Shown piece after piece: positions 43,677 to 49,860 of a stretch of DNA of 64,000 nucleotides. How positions within the stretch are numbered: the first letter of the stretch is position 1; each line of letters begins with the position of its first letter. The translations under genes were made by a program, and so were the position numbers. Origin of the DNA: Polaribacter sp. MED152 (lineage in GTDB: Bacteria > Bacteroidota > Bacteroidia > Flavobacteriales > Flavobacteriaceae); contig NC_020830.1 of NCBI RefSeq assembly GCF_000152945.2, positions 868,001 to 932,000 of the forward strand. The letters are read 5' to 3'. The notes below the pieces were generated by a model that was given only the letters and a program-made list of their open reading frames with translations, was not told the DNA's origin and did no database searches.

Positions 43677-44105
43677 CTACCAGATATTGGTCATTAAATT
43701 GGCAACCATTTCTTTCGTTAATGGTTTGTTTAAAAACATATCAATATCGTCATTAGATTCTATTTTTTCTTTTTCTTCATCTATTAAAGAGGTTGATAAA
43801 ACTACAATTTTAGGTCTGTTTTCCTTAAAATTTTTAGTGGCCGTATACAACTCTATAAAACGAAAACCGTTCATAACTGGCATATTTAAATCAACCAAAA
43901 TTAAATCTGGTTCAATAAAGTTATCAGTTTTATTTTTGTATTGGCCTTCACCTAACAAATAATCTAAAGCATCTTTGCCATTTCTAGAAAATATAATATT
44001 TTTTGTAGTTGGTAATCTTTCAAATACAATCTGATGAAATCTACTCGTAGAAAAATCATCATCTATCAGCATTATATTATACTTATTTATTTTCGATTCA
44101 ATCAT
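43677..44105 (-). CDS. Single-domain response regulator (CheY/Rcp1-like)
   Basis: The 142-residue protein is one receiver domain. Acidic pocket IDDD is at 14-17, the phospho-acceptor Asp72 is in LVDLNMP, the Thr/Ser is in VLSTS and the Lys in FLNKPLT. The extended alpha2 loop (EGQYKNKTDNF) is typical of Rcp1-like regulators that serve phytochrome-type or PAS kinases. Its start overlaps the stop of the CheB-CheR kinase as ATGA, so the two are translationally coupled. It has no output domain. Confidence 0.92.
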   Translation of the reverse strand: MIESKINKYNIMLIDDDFSTSRFHQIVFERLPTTKNIIFSRNGKDALDYLLGEGQYKNKTDNFIEPDLILVDLNMPVMNGFRFIELYTATKNFKENRPKIVVLSTSLIDEEKEKIESNDDIDMFLNKPLTKEMVANLMTNIW

Positions 44106-47100
44106 TCCTCATTGTTTTTAAAACAAAGTGTAAAAGTAGATCCTTTACCCAATTCACTCTCCAGTTTTATATCTCCTCCTGTTTTATCTAATATTTTTTT
44201 AATTAAATACAAGGCTAATCCACTACCTTCATGCTCATCTGTAGCTCTTTTAAACAAACCAAAAACATGTTTTTTATGCTCATTTAAATTAATACCAATA
44301 CCATTATCTTTAATAGAAATACAGTTAAAACCATCTTCTTCAAACGTTTTAATATCTATTTGCAAATCTCTTTCTGGAGATTTATATTTAATAGCATTAT
44401 TTAAAACATTTTGAAGCATACTATTAAAATGTGGCTCAGAAAACAACACAGTTTTGCATTCAGAAAAATCTTGATTTACAGTTATATTTCTCTTCTCAAT
44501 AATTGATTTAAAACTACTTATAACACTATTAAAAGAATTTTCTACATCAATATCTGTTAAGTTATCTAAAACTTGAGTTCTTGCTTTAGCCACAGACATT
44601 AAATTAGATAATGTTTCTGTAGCGTTTTTAATATTCTGCTCAATCCATTTAATGGCCTCTAAAGACGTTTCATCAACAATTTTCTTATCTTCTTTCAGTA
44701 AAGATAAAAACGAACTTATATTATTAATAGGCGCTTTCATATCATGCGTACTTGCATAAGTAAGTTCTTCTAACTCAGACATAACTTGTTTTAAATCTGT
44801 AATATCTCTCCAAGAAGATGAGCTATATAATATATTACCATTTTTATCTTTGATAGAGGATACATTTAGATTCACTTCTATAAAGCCTCCTCTTTTTTTA
44901 TTAATTTTTAGCTCTTTATTTGTAACCTTACCTTCTTTTTTGAAAAGTTCAAAAGCTTTTTTAGCATCTTCTTGAGATTCTTGATGATAAATATCTAAGA
45001 TCTGAGACCCAATAATTTCTTTTCTGGTAAACCCAGTTTTATCTAATAAGGTTTTGTTGCATTCTATAATTTCGCCATTTTTAGGATCTACAGAAACAAA
45101 CATATCTGGAGCATTATTATACAAACGCTTATATTTTTGTGTGGTAAGCTCTAATTGACGAGTTCTATCTTTTACCTCTTTTTCTAAATTTTCATTTGCT
45201 GCCTTTAATTTTGCTTCTGAATCTTTAATATAAGTAATATCTGTAGCAACACCAATATGCTTTACAAAATCTGTACCTTCAATTCTTTCAAATATAGTAT
45301 CTAAAGATAAATACCATCTGTAATCACCATCTTTATGTTTAATTCTATAATCAAACTCTAAAACTTCTCCATCTTTTGAATTATTTATATTTTCAAAATG
45401 TTTTACTACTCTAGGTAAATCATCAGGATGCATAATTGTTGGCAGCATTTCTGCTCCCATTTTTTGAATCTCCTCAGTAGAGTACCCTAATTGATTCATT
45501 AAATCTTTGTTGGCATATTCATTAGATTGTGTTTGCTGATTAAAGATGTATAGTATATTTGGAGTTACCTCAAATATTTTCTCTAAAAATTTATTTTTCT
45601 CATCTAAGGTCTTTTCTAATTTCTTAAGTTCTGTTATGTCTACAAAAGAAATTACTACTCCTTCAATATTCTTTTGAGAGTTTATAAAAGGATGCAGCCT
45701 TTTTAAATACCATTTTTTATTTTGATGAAATATTTCTTTCTCGTAAGGAATTCCAGTGTTTAATACATTGTAAATGGTATCTATAAATGTATGACCATCT
45801 GTTTCACCAAAAGTAGAATTAAAGTGCGCTATTGGCCTACCTAAATCGCTATCAATAATATTAAAGAATTTTTTTACAGTGGGCGTAAACTTTCTAATTC
45901 TTAAATCTTTATCTAAAAAAATGGTACCTATTTCAGTACTATCAATTACATTTTCTAAATCAGAATTAATTTCTGCTACCTCTACCATTTTTTCTTGGTA
46001 CTCAGCATTTACAGTGTGTAATTCTTCGTTAACACTTTGCAACTCTTCATTTGTACTTTGCAATTCTTCGTTAGAAGAAAGCAATTCTTCATTAGTTGCT
46101 TGCAACTCTTCATTAGAGGTTTCAATTTCCTCTACCATAGATTGTAGATTGGCCTTAGTATCCATCAACTCTTGTTCTAAAAGAACAATCCTTTCTTTAT
46201 CAAGCTCACTTAAATTAAAACCTTCTTGAACTACAGCTGTGTTATTCCTTTTTGCATTTTCTGTATCAATAACATTAGATTGAGCTAAAAATAAAATCAA
46301 ATAAAGATTACTTAAACTATTAGGTGTAATCTTAACTGGGTTTACTATTAAAGTTATAGTTTCAAGGTTACTTCTGTCATCAGAAACTAAAATATCTTTA
46401 TAAATTACCTTTATACTTTCCTTCTCAGCTTTACGCAAAGCTGTGCTTAAAGCTATTGCAATGGGTTGAGGTAATATTTTTAAAATGTGAAAAGATCGTA
46501 ATCGTTTTTTTGGAAATTGAAAGAAATTTCTAAAATTACCATCTGCACTTATTAAATCAAAATCCTTATCTACAAAAGCACTTGCTGCCCCAAATTCTTC
46601 CAACAATGCATCTGCAAGAGTTTCATTCAGCACTTTATCTTGTAAGGTTTGCCTACTCATTACCTCTCTAGAAAATTGTTCTGAAGATGAAAAGGTTTTG
46701 TTATAGTAACCCATATCTAAAGTCTTAGTAGGCGCTACATTTTGATATATCCTCCATTTTCTAGACAATACTTTAAGAGAGGAAGAAAACTGCCCTATAG
46801 ATTCACTTGGCCCTAAGAATAAATATTTATCAGGATTTAAGGCATAATGAAAAGTACCAATAATTTTTTGCTGTAAAGCAGAATTTACATAAATCAATAA
46901 ATTTCTACACGTAATTAAATCCATTTTAGTTAAAGGCGGATCTTGAGCTACATTGTGCTGTGAGAAAATTATCATTTTACGTATTTCAGGTGAAATGTTG
47001 TATAAATCTCCCTTTTGAATAAAATACTTTTTTAACAATTCTAAAGAAACATCAGCTACAATACTTTGAGTAAATGAGCCTTTATTTGCTTTATGAATTA

Positions 47101-48184
47101 CTTCTTTATCTAAATCTGTTGCAAAAATTTTAACATCTTGAATAATGTTATTCTCATCCATATATTCTTTAAGCAAAATAGCTAAAGAATAGGCTTCTTC
47201 TCCAGAAGAACAACCCACAGACCAAATTTTTACTCTTTCTTTTGGGCCTTTATTTTTAAATAATTCAGGAATAACATTTTTCTTGATAAAATTAAAAGCT
47301 TCTATATCTCTAAAAAACTTAGTAACCCCAATTAAAAACTCTTTATTTAAAATTTCTAATTCATTCTCATTCTCAAATACATAGTGCAAATAATCTCTTA
47401 TAGTTTGCGCTTTATTTACACTCATTCTTCTTTCTACTCTTCTTATCAGCGTAGGTAGTTTATAGTCAGAAAAATCGATATCTGTTTTTTTATGTACTAA
47501 TGAAATTAGCTTTTCAAAGTCTTTTTTAAAGATTGAGTTTTCATCATCTTCAAAAGTACTTAATGACTTAGGATGCTGAATAAAGTTTACTAATTCTGTT
47601 GGTATGTCTGATACTGGCAAAACATAATCTACTAAACCTGTGGCTATTGCACTATTAGGCATACCATCAAATTTGGCATCTCTTGGCTTTTGCACCATTA
47701 ACATTCCACCATATTCTTTAATAGTTCTAATACCTCTAGTACCATCAGAACCTGTACCAGAAAGTACAATACCAACAGATTTTTCTTGTTGATCTACTGC
47801 CAACGACTTAAAGAAAATATCAATAGGTAAGTTTAAATCAAAGCCTTTGGGCTTATCTGTTAAATGCAACACACCATTCTTAATGGTCATGTTTTTCTTT
47901 GGCGGAATTAAATAAACATTACCAGCTTCAATAACAGAACCATCCTCTACTTCATGAATGGGTAATTCAGTGTTTCTAGACAGTAAATCTGCCATTAAAC
48001 TTTTATAATCTGGTGATAAGTGTTGTACAATTACTATGGCATGGTTAAAATCGCTTGGTAAATTATCGAAGAAAAGCTTTAAAGCCTCTAAACCTCCTGC
48101 TGATGTTCCTATACCTACAATAAAAGAATCTTTATTTACAATACTTCTACCCCCCTTTTGATCTTTGGTTTCTTTGCTATCCAT
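44102..48184 (-). CDS. CheB-CheR-PAS-histidine kinase fusion
   Basis: The 1360-residue protein joins, in order: a CheB methylesterase domain (GTSAGGLE, Ser28; QHLSP; GTGSDG), a CheR methyltransferase domain (about 215-480; SVGCSSGEEAYSLAILL and TCRNLLIY), a heptad-repeat coiled coil (about 685-721), several PAS domains (about 740-1130), and HisKA (STHDMKAPINN, about 1145) plus HATPase (DNGIGINL; GSGLALYLI). No receiver or membrane segment is present. Such hybrids are frequent in Bacteroidetes; whether the CheB/CheR parts act on a methyl-accepting protein is unknown, and none is nearby. It is coupled to the receiver gene downstream. Confidence 0.93.
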   Translation of the reverse strand: MDSKETKDQKGGRSIVNKDSFIVGIGTSAGGLEALKLFFDNLPSDFNHAIVIVQHLSPDYKSLMADLLSRNTELPIHEVEDGSVIEAGNVYLIPPKKNMTIKNGVLHLTDKPKGFDLNLPIDIFFKSLAVDQQEKSVGIVLSGTGSDGTRGIRTIKEYGGMLMVQKPRDAKFDGMPNSAIATGLVDYVLPVSDIPTELVNFIQHPKSLSTFEDDENSIFKKDFEKLISLVHKKTDIDFSDYKLPTLIRRVERRMSVNKAQTIRDYLHYVFENENELEILNKEFLIGVTKFFRDIEAFNFIKKNVIPELFKNKGPKERVKIWSVGCSSGEEAYSLAILLKEYMDENNIIQDVKIFATDLDKEVIHKANKGSFTQSIVADVSLELLKKYFIQKGDLYNISPEIRKMIIFSQHNVAQDPPLTKMDLITCRNLLIYVNSALQQKIIGTFHYALNPDKYLFLGPSESIGQFSSSLKVLSRKWRIYQNVAPTKTLDMGYYNKTFSSSEQFSREVMSRQTLQDKVLNETLADALLEEFGAASAFVDKDFDLISADGNFRNFFQFPKKRLRSFHILKILPQPIAIALSTALRKAEKESIKVIYKDILVSDDRSNLETITLIVNPVKITPNSLSNLYLILFLAQSNVIDTENAKRNNTAVVQEGFNLSELDKERIVLLEQELMDTKANLQSMVEEIETSNEELQATNEELLSSNEELQSTNEELQSVNEELHTVNAEYQEKMVEVAEINSDLENVIDSTEIGTIFLDKDLRIRKFTPTVKKFFNIIDSDLGRPIAHFNSTFGETDGHTFIDTIYNVLNTGIPYEKEIFHQNKKWYLKRLHPFINSQKNIEGVVISFVDITELKKLEKTLDEKNKFLEKIFEVTPNILYIFNQQTQSNEYANKDLMNQLGYSTEEIQKMGAEMLPTIMHPDDLPRVVKHFENINNSKDGEVLEFDYRIKHKDGDYRWYLSLDTIFERIEGTDFVKHIGVATDITYIKDSEAKLKAANENLEKEVKDRTRQLELTTQKYKRLYNNAPDMFVSVDPKNGEIIECNKTLLDKTGFTRKEIIGSQILDIYHQESQEDAKKAFELFKKEGKVTNKELKINKKRGGFIEVNLNVSSIKDKNGNILYSSSSWRDITDLKQVMSELEELTYASTHDMKAPINNISSFLSLLKEDKKIVDETSLEAIKWIEQNIKNATETLSNLMSVAKARTQVLDNLTDIDVENSFNSVISSFKSIIEKRNITVNQDFSECKTVLFSEPHFNSMLQNVLNNAIKYKSPERDLQIDIKTFEEDGFNCISIKDNGIGINLNEHKKHVFGLFKRATDEHEGSGLALYLIKKILDKTGGDIKLESELGKGSTFTLCFKNNEE
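46020..46131 (-). repeat. 21-nt in-frame repeats encoding a heptad coiled coil
   Basis: Five or six consecutive seven-codon units of the type SNEELQSTNEELQS at residues about 685-721 of the CheB-CheR kinase. The coil is a likely signal-transmitting helix between the CheR and PAS parts. Confidence 0.8.
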
Positions 48185-48291
48185 GAGTTGCTGGTTAATT
48201 ATGATAAAGATAATTTTTTAAAAATTATTTTAAAAATATTTGGAGACTAAAATATTTTTTATAAATTGTAACTAATTAAGACAATAATCGA

Positions 48292-48336
48292 CGAAAAAAG
48301 ACATTCAACCTTCCCCCACTAAATGACTTTTTTTCG
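48292..48336. terminator. Long imperfect hairpin with CCTTCCCCCAC loop
   Basis: CGAAAAAAG-A-CATT (48292-48305) pairs with AATG-A-CTTTTTTTCG (48322-48336) around a single A-A mismatch. The loop shows CCTTCCCCCAC on the plus strand (48309-48319), nearly complementary to the GTGGGG loop of the two sRNAs downstream. Both strands end in a U run, so it could terminate transcription in either direction. Confidence 0.55.
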
Positions 48337-48357
48337 GAATTAAAAAGAAATCTTAAT

Positions 48358-48396
48358 TAAAAAGAGCTGGATGTCACCAGCTCTTTTTTTTTTTTG
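48358..48396. terminator. Strong intrinsic terminator in the kinase-regulator gap
   Basis: Stem AAAAAGAGCTGG and CCAGCTCTTTTT (48359-48370 and 48377-48388), loop ATGTCA, with a T run of about 12 on the plus side. No plus-strand gene precedes it closely, so it may end a short plus-strand transcript or isolate the kinase promoter. Confidence 0.75.
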
Positions 48397-48399
48397 CTT

Positions 48400-48465
48400 A
48401 AAAAAAAGAACCAACGTTTTAAAAAGCGTTAGTTCTTATGTGATAGCCTTCCCCACAAAGGTTAT
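48400..48465 (-). ncRNA. Candidate small RNA, copy 1 (about 66 nt)
   Basis: On the minus strand a consensus promoter (48502-48470) places the start at 48465. From there the RNA folds into a 5' hairpin, AUAACCUU / AAGGCUAU with one A-C mismatch and loop UGUGGGG. A short linker and an intrinsic terminator follow, AAGAACUAACG pairing with CGUUGGUUCUU plus a U run ending about 48400. A 27-nt core including the whole 5' hairpin is identical in copy 2 (48740-48714). No start codon or ORF is present. I do not recognise a named family with certainty; Flavo-1 is a candidate to compare. Confidence 0.62.
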
Positions 48466-48469
48466 GAGC

Positions 48470-48502
48470 CAAAATTAAAAGACAATTTCATTATATTCAA
48501 AA
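48470..48502 (-). promoter_or_regulatory. Promoter of sRNA copy 1
   Basis: Minus-strand TAATTTTG (48477-48470) is a perfect -7 box and TTTTG (48502-48498) a perfect -33 box, with a 20-nt spacer. The start 5 nt downstream is 48465. Confidence 0.65.
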
Positions 48503-48675
48503 TAATTTAACAACCATTTTCGACAACACTTTCTCTATTTTCGACATAAAGTTACTCTAATTGAAGAACATTTAAAGCACAAGATTTTTATATAGATTAT
48601 ACAAATTAGCGCTACTTTTAAATATATTCTTATAGTAAATAGCTTTCTTATTTTGTATCCAAAATACTTTTCCAT

Positions 48676-48738
48676 AAAAAAAAAGAACCAACATAAACGT
48701 CAGTTCTTTTACTTGATAGCCTTCCCCACAAAGGTTAT
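48676..48738 (-). ncRNA. Candidate small RNA, copy 2 (about 63 nt)
   Basis: It has the same design as copy 1: -7 box TAAATTTG at 48750-48743, predicted start 48738 and the identical 5' hairpin with UGUGGGG loop. The terminator stem is AAGAACUGAC with GUUGGUUCUU and a run of 9 U. The two terminator stems differ in sequence but both keep pairing on the minus strand through G-U wobbles, while the plus-strand versions have mismatches. This points to the minus strand as the transcribed one. Confidence 0.62.
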
Positions 48739-48742
48739 GATT

Positions 48743-48750
48743 CAAATTTA
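48743..48750 (-). promoter_or_regulatory. -7 promoter box of sRNA copy 2
   Basis: Minus-strand TAAATTTG matches TAnnTTTG. The distance from it to the shared TCATAACC sequence is the same as in copy 1. The -33 element is weak. Confidence 0.55.
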
Positions 48751-49022
48751 ATAGACATCTTTAACATATGTTAATAAATCATTTAACTATTGAAGACTTA
48801 AAAACAACCATTTCAGACACATAGAAATTAAAACATAATTTAAATTACTAACTTTCTAGTAATAGAACCAACTATATATCAGTCTAAATTTATACTCAAA
48901 TCACTTGATAAATCATTCTATAATTATTTTATATTCATATAGTTCCGAATTAATAATTGATCTTTTTCCAATAAAATTTACTATTTTAGATTTATAAACC
49001 TTCTGTTTAGCCTTAAAAATTT
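48751..49022. other. AT-rich intergenic stretch before the receiver-AraC gene
   Basis: About 270 bp of low-complexity AT-rich sequence between sRNA copy 2 and the ATG at 49023. I see no convincing ORF, hairpin or perfect promoter box, although the regulator's promoter must lie here. Confidence 0.5.
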
Positions 49023-49724
49023 ATGAAAACTAAAATTTTAGTAGTTGATGATTCTATAGATTCTAGGATCTATGTTTCTAGTATCTTATCTGATTATGAA
49101 GTTTTAGAAGCAAAAAGTGGCGAAGAAGCTTTAGATACCATTTCTAAGGTCAATATTGATTTGCTAATTACTGATTACAACATGCCAGAAATGGATGGTT
49201 TTGAGTTAGTTTCCAAAATTAAGCAGAAGAAATACGAGTTTCCTATTATCATAATAACATCACTTACTTCTTTAGATAAGAAGAAAAAAATGCTAAGGTT
49301 GGGTATAGATAATTATGTTTACAAGCCATTTTTCAAAGAAGAATTAATTAACATAATTTCAAGAGCTATTGTATACCACAAAACAGTACTTTCTTCTAAA
49401 AGCAAATTAGACTTAGATACTAATGATCAATTTGAAGATTTTAAAACAAAAACAGAACGAATTCTTTTTGAAAACGTAGATAATTTTAATTTTTCCATAG
49501 AATCCTTGGCAGAAGAATTTGAGATTTCTACAAAAACATTAACTAGAAGAACCAAGGCAATTTTTGGTCAAACTCCAAATCAGTTAATGATTGAGTGCAG
49601 GTTAAATGTGGCTCAAGAAATCATATCACAAAATCCGAGAATTAGTTTAAAAGAAACTGCCAAAAAAGTCGGACTCAAAAATACGACCTACCTAAAAAGT
49701 AGATTAAAAGAAAAATTTAAATAG
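49023..49724 (+). CDS. Response regulator with AraC-type DNA-binding domain
   Basis: The 233-residue protein has an N-terminal receiver (acidic pair DD 9-10, phospho-acceptor Asp51 in LITDYNMPEMDGF, Lys in YKPF about 101). The C-terminal AraC/HTH_18 domain is at about 140-233 (FSIESLAEEFEISTKTLTRR and SLKETAKKVGLKNTTYLKSRL). It is a transcription factor with no cognate kinase gene directly adjacent; the CheB-CheR kinase across the sRNA gap and the soluble kinase are candidates. A strong terminator follows. Confidence 0.93.
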   Translation: MKTKILVVDDSIDSRIYVSSILSDYEVLEAKSGEEALDTISKVNIDLLITDYNMPEMDGFELVSKIKQKKYEFPIIIITSLTSLDKKKKMLRLGIDNYVYKPFFKEELINIISRAIVYHKTVLSSKSKLDLDTNDQFEDFKTKTERILFENVDNFNFSIESLAEEFEISTKTLTRRTKAIFGQTPNQLMIECRLNVAQEIISQNPRISLKETAKKVGLKNTTYLKSRLKEKFK

Positions 49725-49774: not shown

Positions 49775-49860
49775 GCGGAGAAAGAGGGATTCGAACCCCC
49801 GGACCTGTTACAGTCAACAGTTTTCAAGACTGCCGCATTCGACCACTCTGCCATTTCTCC
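49775..49860 (-). tRNA. tRNA-Ser (anticodon TGA)
   Basis: The minus strand begins GGAGAAATGGCAGAGTGG and ends with TTTCTCC plus discriminator G. The acceptor GGAGAAA pairs with TTTCTCC. The anticodon loop reads TCTTGAAAA with TGA centred, and the T arm contains GGTTCGAATCC. A long variable arm is present, giving 86 nt, as expected for tRNA-Ser. No CCA is encoded, in keeping with the cca gene in this window. Confidence 0.95.

Follow-up and report, generated by a model that had tools for sequence, protein, structure and literature searches.

A window of 64,000 nucleotides from the genome of Polaribacter sp. MED152, which is the whole stretch of DNA that was analysed, contains a gap between a sensor kinase gene on the minus strand and a gene for a REC-AraC response regulator on the plus strand, and two short units with the features of small RNA genes lie on the minus strand within this gap (Table 1). 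An earlier note on this sequence had described two minus-strand units that are 273 bp apart and share an identical core of 27 nt, and both were found as stated. Each unit has the TAnnTTTG box noted before, followed by AUAACCUUUGUGGGGAAGGCUAU, which folds as a hairpin, and by an intrinsic terminator, and the predicted start sites (48465 and 48738) fall in both copies on the fifth base past the -7 box. Throughout the genome of 2,957,500 bases the 26-nt core is present exactly twice when up to three mismatches are allowed, and the reversed control gave no match. The kinase is the likely partner of the REC-AraC regulator, its HisKA domain scoring under the curated Pfam cut-off (21.5 vs 26.9 bits), and the regulator is in turn the likely activator of the sRNA units.

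Table 1. Features of the kinase-regulator gap and of related units elsewhere. Positions are those of the window unless preceded by a genome (G000, the genome of Polaribacter sp. MED152 itself) or a locus (L).
Feature	Position	Strand	Remarks
Predicted sRNA, copy B	48400..48465	-	5' hairpin 48465-48443; G run GUGGGG 48456-48451; terminator 48437-48400
Predicted sRNA, copy A	48676..48738	-	5' hairpin 48738-48716; G run GUGGGG 48729-48724; terminator 48710-48676
-7 promoter box of copy B	48470..48477	-	TAATTTTG
-7 promoter box of copy A	48743..48750	-	TAAATTTG
Putative tandem operator of copy B	48514..48546	-	TGTCGAAAATAG / TGTCGAAAATGG; 21-bp period; second repeat 48 nt before -7 box
Putative tandem operator of copy A	48787..48819	-	TGTCTGAAATGG / AGTCTTCAATAG; 21-bp period; second repeat 48 nt before -7 box
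Sensor kinase, CheB-CheR-PAS-HisKA-HATPase	44102..48184	-	Pfam
Single-domain receiver (CheY-like)	43677..44105	-	Overlaps kinase end; Pfam Response_reg 9.7e-9
REC-AraC (HTH_18) response regulator	49023..49724	+	Pfam Response_reg 2.2e-26, HTH_18 3e-9
Operator copy beside regulator start	G188:C14:213408-213440
Operator copy beside regulator start	G097:C1:2510674-2510706
UUGGGGGAU hairpin with terminator, L242	G000:2077981-2078049	same as LytTR gene
UUGGGGGAU hairpin with terminator, L249	G000:2144510-2144608	same as LytTR gene
UUGGGGGAU hairpin with terminator, L252	G000:1984900-1984975	same as LytTR gene
G-loop candidate	L170:1518-1589	+	Between THUMP-like methyltransferase gene and fdhD; TATATTTG box, wide loop
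Four tandem G-loop units (GTTTATAGTTCGGGGGGACTGTGAAC type), G094	L138:1502-2429	-	Between aldehyde dehydrogenase and peptidyl-tRNA hydrolase genes

Both window units fold better than their shuffled counterparts (fold z-scores -3.13 and -2.55). The 5' hairpin proposed earlier, with a UGUGGGG loop, is recovered, and this extent of the loop is one of two readings; in the minimum-energy fold a 5-nt loop, GUGGG, is carried on a CCUUU/GAAGG stem, and a longer stem is possible only by way of an A.C mismatch. The terminators had been thought to pair fully only on the minus strand, and this proved correct for copy A, whose last 40 nt fold with -11.7 kcal/mol in the sense and -7.6 kcal/mol in the antisense direction, and incorrect for copy B (-11.7 vs -11.9 kcal/mol). 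When whole units are compared, the sense strand is the better folder in 14 of the 15 units of the family, the exception being window copy B. A reading of the units as peptide genes was rejected, as the 6-codon GUG frame present in window copies A and B and in the Polaribacter genome G024 is absent from the five units of Polaribacter vadi.

A full Rfam scan of the 64-kb window at gathering scores returned only an ordinary small SRP RNA of the Bacteroidales type (RF04183) and an ordinary tRNA (2094-2200 and 49776-49860, minus strand), and nothing in the gap. The Flavo-1 motif (RF01705), which had been put forward for comparison, gave no match in the window at these scores and is also missing when 48200-49020 is searched with E up to 10, where the 47 weak matches look like matches to terminators. 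At gathering score, Rfam families were likewise not found in ten further loci (L023-L025, L106, L138, L139, L140, L142, L148 and L158). The model of FopS (RF04319) reached 17.1 bits against a cut-off of 56, on the plus strand at 48323-48396 and away from the units. No description of this G-loop sRNA family was found among the open-access papers searched, judged by title or the start of the abstract.

The nearest named relatives of the regulator occur in Polaribacter vadi (81% identity), Polaribacter sp. MSW5 (75%) and Wenyingzhuangia sp. 2_MG-2023 (54%). Regulator matches (E <=1e-40) are found in 16 of 166 Polaribacter genomes, five of which (the genome studied here, G024, G188, G097 and G096) encode stand-alone orthologues with 75-100% identity; the other eleven matches show 38-42% identity and belong to frames of 647-739 amino acids, plus one of 299. 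Among 397 genomes of the same family (E <=1e-50) there are three matches, namely the regulator itself, a 246-residue frame in G367 (54% identity) and an 812-residue frame in G271 (46% identity). The sRNA units adjoin the regulator in all five Polaribacter genomes with a stand-alone orthologue, and also in the Wenyingzhuangia locus and in G367, a linkage that rests on seven loci, few genomes having a stand-alone regulator. There are one to five units per genome: two in the window, one in G024, five in tandem in G188, three in G097, two in G096 and one each in Wenyingzhuangia and G367, where G188 and P. vadi (L023) are counted once, as are G096 and MSW5 (L024). The Wenyingzhuangia unit (L025:4515-4620, minus strand) is a single RNA with two hairpins of this kind, both closed by GGGG tetraloops, and an additional, third GGGG run, and has a fold z-score of -8.75. 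Promoter, structured body and terminator have been kept together in the 15 units of these seven genomes, which is the arrangement expected of genes for trans-acting sRNAs, paralogous copies inside one genome not being independent. A search with the core itself (two mismatches allowed, 59 genomes) matched 18 genomes, including that of MED152; around the matches in 16 of the others no promoter-hairpin-terminator unit was seen by eye, and only G024 (locus L006) has one besides MED152.

A covariance model (R1) was built from ten of the relatives' units, leaving out the window copies, G024, an odd unit of G097 (G097b) and the Wenyingzhuangia RNA. Applied to the 64-kb window, the model gave its best score to copy A (53.0 bits, E 1.3e-8) and its second best to copy B (40.0 bits, E 7.5e-6), followed by two weaker matches of 26.5 bits each. 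In the RNAalifold structure of the ten units, which was the one tested for covariation, 93.6% of 204 cells pair, both-sided changes occur in nine of the 21 base pairs, and the covariation score of 0.372 compares with 0.206 +- 0.025 in shuffles (none of 500 as high) and with at most 0.110 when the partners are slid. A register set by hand for 16 hairpins from seven genomes gave 131 paired cells out of 144, against 106.2 +- 3.3 in shuffles (none of 2000 as high), a comparison that is biased towards pairing as the loop bounds were also set by hand. In this register stem positions 5, 6 and 8 vary among A-U, C-G, G-C, U-A, G-U and U-G, and are unpaired in four, three and two of the 16 hairpins, respectively, while the CUU/AAG part of the stem is near-constant. 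The window copies and G024 have the loop GUGGG, one hairpin has GGAG, another has UUAAGGG, and the rest have GGGG. A stem that is free to change as long as it pairs, together with a loop that is almost fixed, suggests that the G loop is the working part of the RNA. The earlier proposal of duplicated sRNA genes is well supported, since the relatives retain the order of promoter, hairpin and terminator and their stems covary. The model matches 48 of the 166 Polaribacter genomes at E 0.001, a number that is not the prevalence of the twin family, as matches below about 49 bits are a mixture of window copy B (40.0 bits), other G-loop units and ordinary terminators; by eye, nine of 23 other R1 loci examined (of 25) have a loop with a G run.

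Further analysis went beyond the earlier note in bringing out a putative tandem operator, a tie to the neighbouring regulator and a wider set of G-loop units. A direct repeat of TGTCnnnAATnG with a period of 20-21 bp is recognisable ahead of all 15 units, being degenerate in several of them. As measured by script, the start of the second repeat lies 48 nt ahead of the -7 box in 13 of the 15 units, the exceptions being G097b (46 nt) and the MSW5 unit MSW5b (38 nt), where the script took another frame. Column by column, 14 of the 15 units keep each of the T, G and T at -48 to -46, 13 keep the C at -45 and all keep the T at -39, while the spacer downstream of the operator has a mean identity of 37%. 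When six genomes were searched with the exact operator pattern, 11 matches were obtained in four of them, all inside the kinase-regulator gap (reversed control, none); nine lie ahead of sRNA units and two beside the start of the regulator gene, in G188 and G097, which suggests that the regulator may control its own gene in these two genomes. The remaining two, G096 and G367, have degenerate sites only and no exact match. Extended to the 166 Polaribacter genomes, the exact pattern occurs in four of the five with the regulator and, as one stray match each, in 15 of the 161 without it (the reversed control giving a total of 30 matches, every one of them outside the five regulator genomes), a comparison in which the exclusivity is partly by construction, the pattern having been written from these sites, and in which the regulator-less genomes serve as the fair control. 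Repeats with a period of about 20-21 bp are used by AraC-type proteins. Another TGTC pair, with a 20-bp period, is located upstream of the kinase gene on the minus strand (48280-48303) and is not 48 nt from the likely -7 box of the kinase, TATCTTTA (48212-48205); the kinase gene may or may not be under the same control as the sRNAs.

Further candidate G-loop units are found elsewhere in the genome and in other genomes. A loose pattern (-7 box, G4, T6) gave 20 rows at 14 places in the MED152 genome, against three rows in the control, and at six of these places, namely the twins and four others, a hairpin with a G loop can form ahead of a terminator. Three of the four have UUGGGGGAU in common, and each of these three follows a LytTR gene of its own strand at a distance of 101-117 nt, so that, of the 13 LytTR domains encoded in the genome, three belong to genes followed by a UUGGGGGAU hairpin and terminator. 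One of the four candidates (L170) has a wide loop and another, the LytTR-linked L174, has an alternative fold: with upstream bases included, its lowest-energy structure pairs the G run to a CCC, and the G loop is exposed only if the RNA begins past that CCC. In other genomes, where the set was picked by eye from the biased R1 list, the tandem units of G094 have TTCATCGA-like elements upstream and relatives in G170, G110 and G132, and further G-loop units are present in G103, G018 and G066. A unit in G004 follows a gene resembling REC-LytTR, while that of G139 has no LytTR gene in view. The element TTCATCGA was seen by eye upstream of several G-loop units, and two loci have two copies of it separated by 21 bp. 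It is tentatively conceivable that a single G-rich-loop RNA signal is shared by unrelated signalling systems (REC-AraC and LytTR) of Polaribacter and its kin, perhaps with one common receiver, which might be an undescribed RNA-binding protein or a site in the ribosome or in an RNA.

The partner of the loop was sought among start sites with the pattern TTCCCCA followed by ATG 2-32 nt further on. This gave 49 rows in the MED152 genome against 56 in its reversed control, and 68 rows in G024 against 37, an excess. Among the 59 loci inspected (60 of the 117 rows, 30 per genome) no credible C-rich start-site target was seen; in three of them the ATG opens at least 50 codons, and all three sites lie inside a longer frame. 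This result argues against simple pairing at start sites and lends no support to the earlier suggestion of pairing between the G loop and C-rich targets. One sequence complementary to the sRNA loop is present within the gap itself, on the plus strand at 48309-48319 (CCTTCCCCCAC; one bulge, duplex of -16.8 kcal/mol), ahead of a plus-strand hairpin with T12 at 48360-48395. Read on the minus strand it is GTGGGGGAAGG, which is perhaps a decayed third copy, and a search of 48184-48400 for a plus-strand TAnnTTTG/A box found none, which speaks against a sponge RNA at this site.

The best reading of the locus is that the kinase and the REC-AraC regulator form a two-component system whose main detectable output on the DNA is a multicopy sRNA. 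In the mechanism that we propose, the twins would be independent genes for trans-acting RNAs of 63-66 nt. The kinase next door would phosphorylate the regulator, which would then bind the tandem TGTCnnnAATnG repeats and recruit RNA polymerase to each sRNA promoter, and additional sRNA copies would provide a higher dose. Each RNA would consist of a 5' hairpin exposing the G-rich loop, and a terminator, and the most likely role of the loop would be to contact C-rich stretches in other RNAs and so alter their translation or stability. Judged from the anatomy of the genes, the covariation and the conserved neighbourhood, the twins are very probably real sRNA genes; their control by the neighbouring regulator is probable, given the operator and its near-exclusive position before sRNAs or beside the regulator gene, and the two propositions taken together are still rather likely. 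Pairing of the RNA by its loop is a plausible idea that we hold with somewhat less than even confidence.

Several other explanations bear on parts of this reading. Instead of being antisense RNAs, the G-loop hairpins could act in the manner of CsrB and RsmZ, as decoys by which an RNA-binding protein is titrated, which would fit the fixed loop on variable stems, the Wenyingzhuangia RNA with its two hairpins and extra GGGG run, and the lack of a credible target among the 59 start-site loci. Set against this, CsrA (PF02599) is missing from all 20 genomes searched, that of MED152 included (control genomes match in three of 14), and GGA is absent from some of the loops (GGGGC in one P. vadi copy, GGGGU in Wenyingzhuangia and in the G367 locus L120), and we consider decoys unlikely, at perhaps a minor share of the probability. 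That the loop mimics a Shine-Dalgarno sequence and contacts the anti-Shine-Dalgarno tail of 16S rRNA, for example on ribosomes lacking bS21, is very unlikely: most loops give just five pairs, contain GGGG and not GGAGG, and are without the flanking A residues of a good Shine-Dalgarno sequence. One unit of the family and the G-loop unit L139 do have GGAGG in place of GGGGG and can pair with CCUCC, and the computed duplexes amount to -7.1 to -9.3 kcal/mol with an assumed 16S tail sequence. Flavobacterium ribosomes that lack bS21 are described as gaining a function (PMC9976891).

The units might also be tandem leaders or attenuators of the kinase gene and not separate sRNAs, as the kinase begins downstream on the same strand in MED152, G024 and P. 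vadi and, by eye, in G096 and G097. This is highly improbable because in Wenyingzhuangia the RNA is followed by a different gene and the kinase is found on the opposite side, past the regulator; in the window, moreover, a second terminator (48360-48395) and the separate TATCTTTA box at 48212 intervene between copy B and the kinase. Repeats spaced by some two turns of the helix are used by proteins of the AraC type as well as the LytTR type, and the operator could be bound by another regulator, the REC-AraC protein being linked by position only. We regard this as improbable, as the operator pattern is frequent only in genomes with this REC-AraC regulator and, in G188 and G097, is also present next to the start of the regulator gene itself. 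Finally, chance, or a recent duplication of functionless filler bearing a terminator, could account for the identical 27-nt core and for the likeness of the copies in the window alone, and is scarcely credible in view of the covariation, the fixed spacing of the operator with a diverged spacer, and a neighbourhood conserved over seven loci.

GacA acting on RsmX, RsmY and RsmZ is an example of a two-component system with small RNAs as its main output, in which GGA loops bind CsrA/RsmA. The two-component system proposed here resembles GacA-RsmX/Y/Z and CsrB in that small RNAs with repeated loop motifs would be the output (PMC2375449, PMC4132741), and differs in the absence of CsrA and in the GGGGC and GGGGU loops without GGA. 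The LhrC1-5 sRNAs of Listeria monocytogenes are described as LisRK-dependent and multicopy, 111-114 nt in length, with three CU-rich (UCCC) sites (PMC4132741). Both families have near-identical copies, several of them in one locus, with a repeated short motif in the loops; the LhrC copies have their own promoters and depend on a two-component system (PMC4132741), and here, judging by sequence, there are likewise copies, promoters and a shared operator. In contrast to the C-rich sites of LhrC the exposed motif is G-rich in the present units, host and sequence are unrelated, and the available portion of the LhrC report does not mention adjacency to the two-component genes, which the present units adjoin (PMC4132741). 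The system would thus work like LisRK-LhrC or GacA-Rsm and is best regarded as a member of neither.

Within the Bacteroidota, FopS of Bacteroides thetaiotaomicron is described as a family of 14 dispersed members in which a terminator follows a single-stranded 5' seed (PMC11697453). Like the present units, FopS is multicopy, belongs to the same phylum, measures about 65-70 nt and has TAnnTTTG-type promoters and a 3' terminator, whereas the units described here have a covarying 5' G-loop hairpin and are clustered at a two-component locus, unlike the dispersed FopS members with their single-stranded seed (PMC11697453). Rfp18 of Flavobacterium psychrophilum, also a flavobacterial sRNA with stem-loops, has a regulatory effect and pairs via its third stem-loop with predicted metalloprotease targets; it is set apart by description, the accessible part of its report mentioning neither a multicopy arrangement nor a two-component link (PMC9723704).

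Little is known of sRNA regulation in the Bacteroidota, and here kinase, regulator, apparent operators and sRNA copies are all brought together in one gap. As these operators are found only before the sRNAs or beside the regulator gene, the removal of a single gene is enough to test the passage from signal to RNA. The range of one to five copies in the same gap across species provides a natural series for the study of sRNA gene multiplication. If several systems do share the G loop as their output, this would be an equivalent of Gac/Rsm in the Bacteroidota, assembled from other components, and finding the receiver of the loop would open up a regulatory layer of marine flavobacteria.
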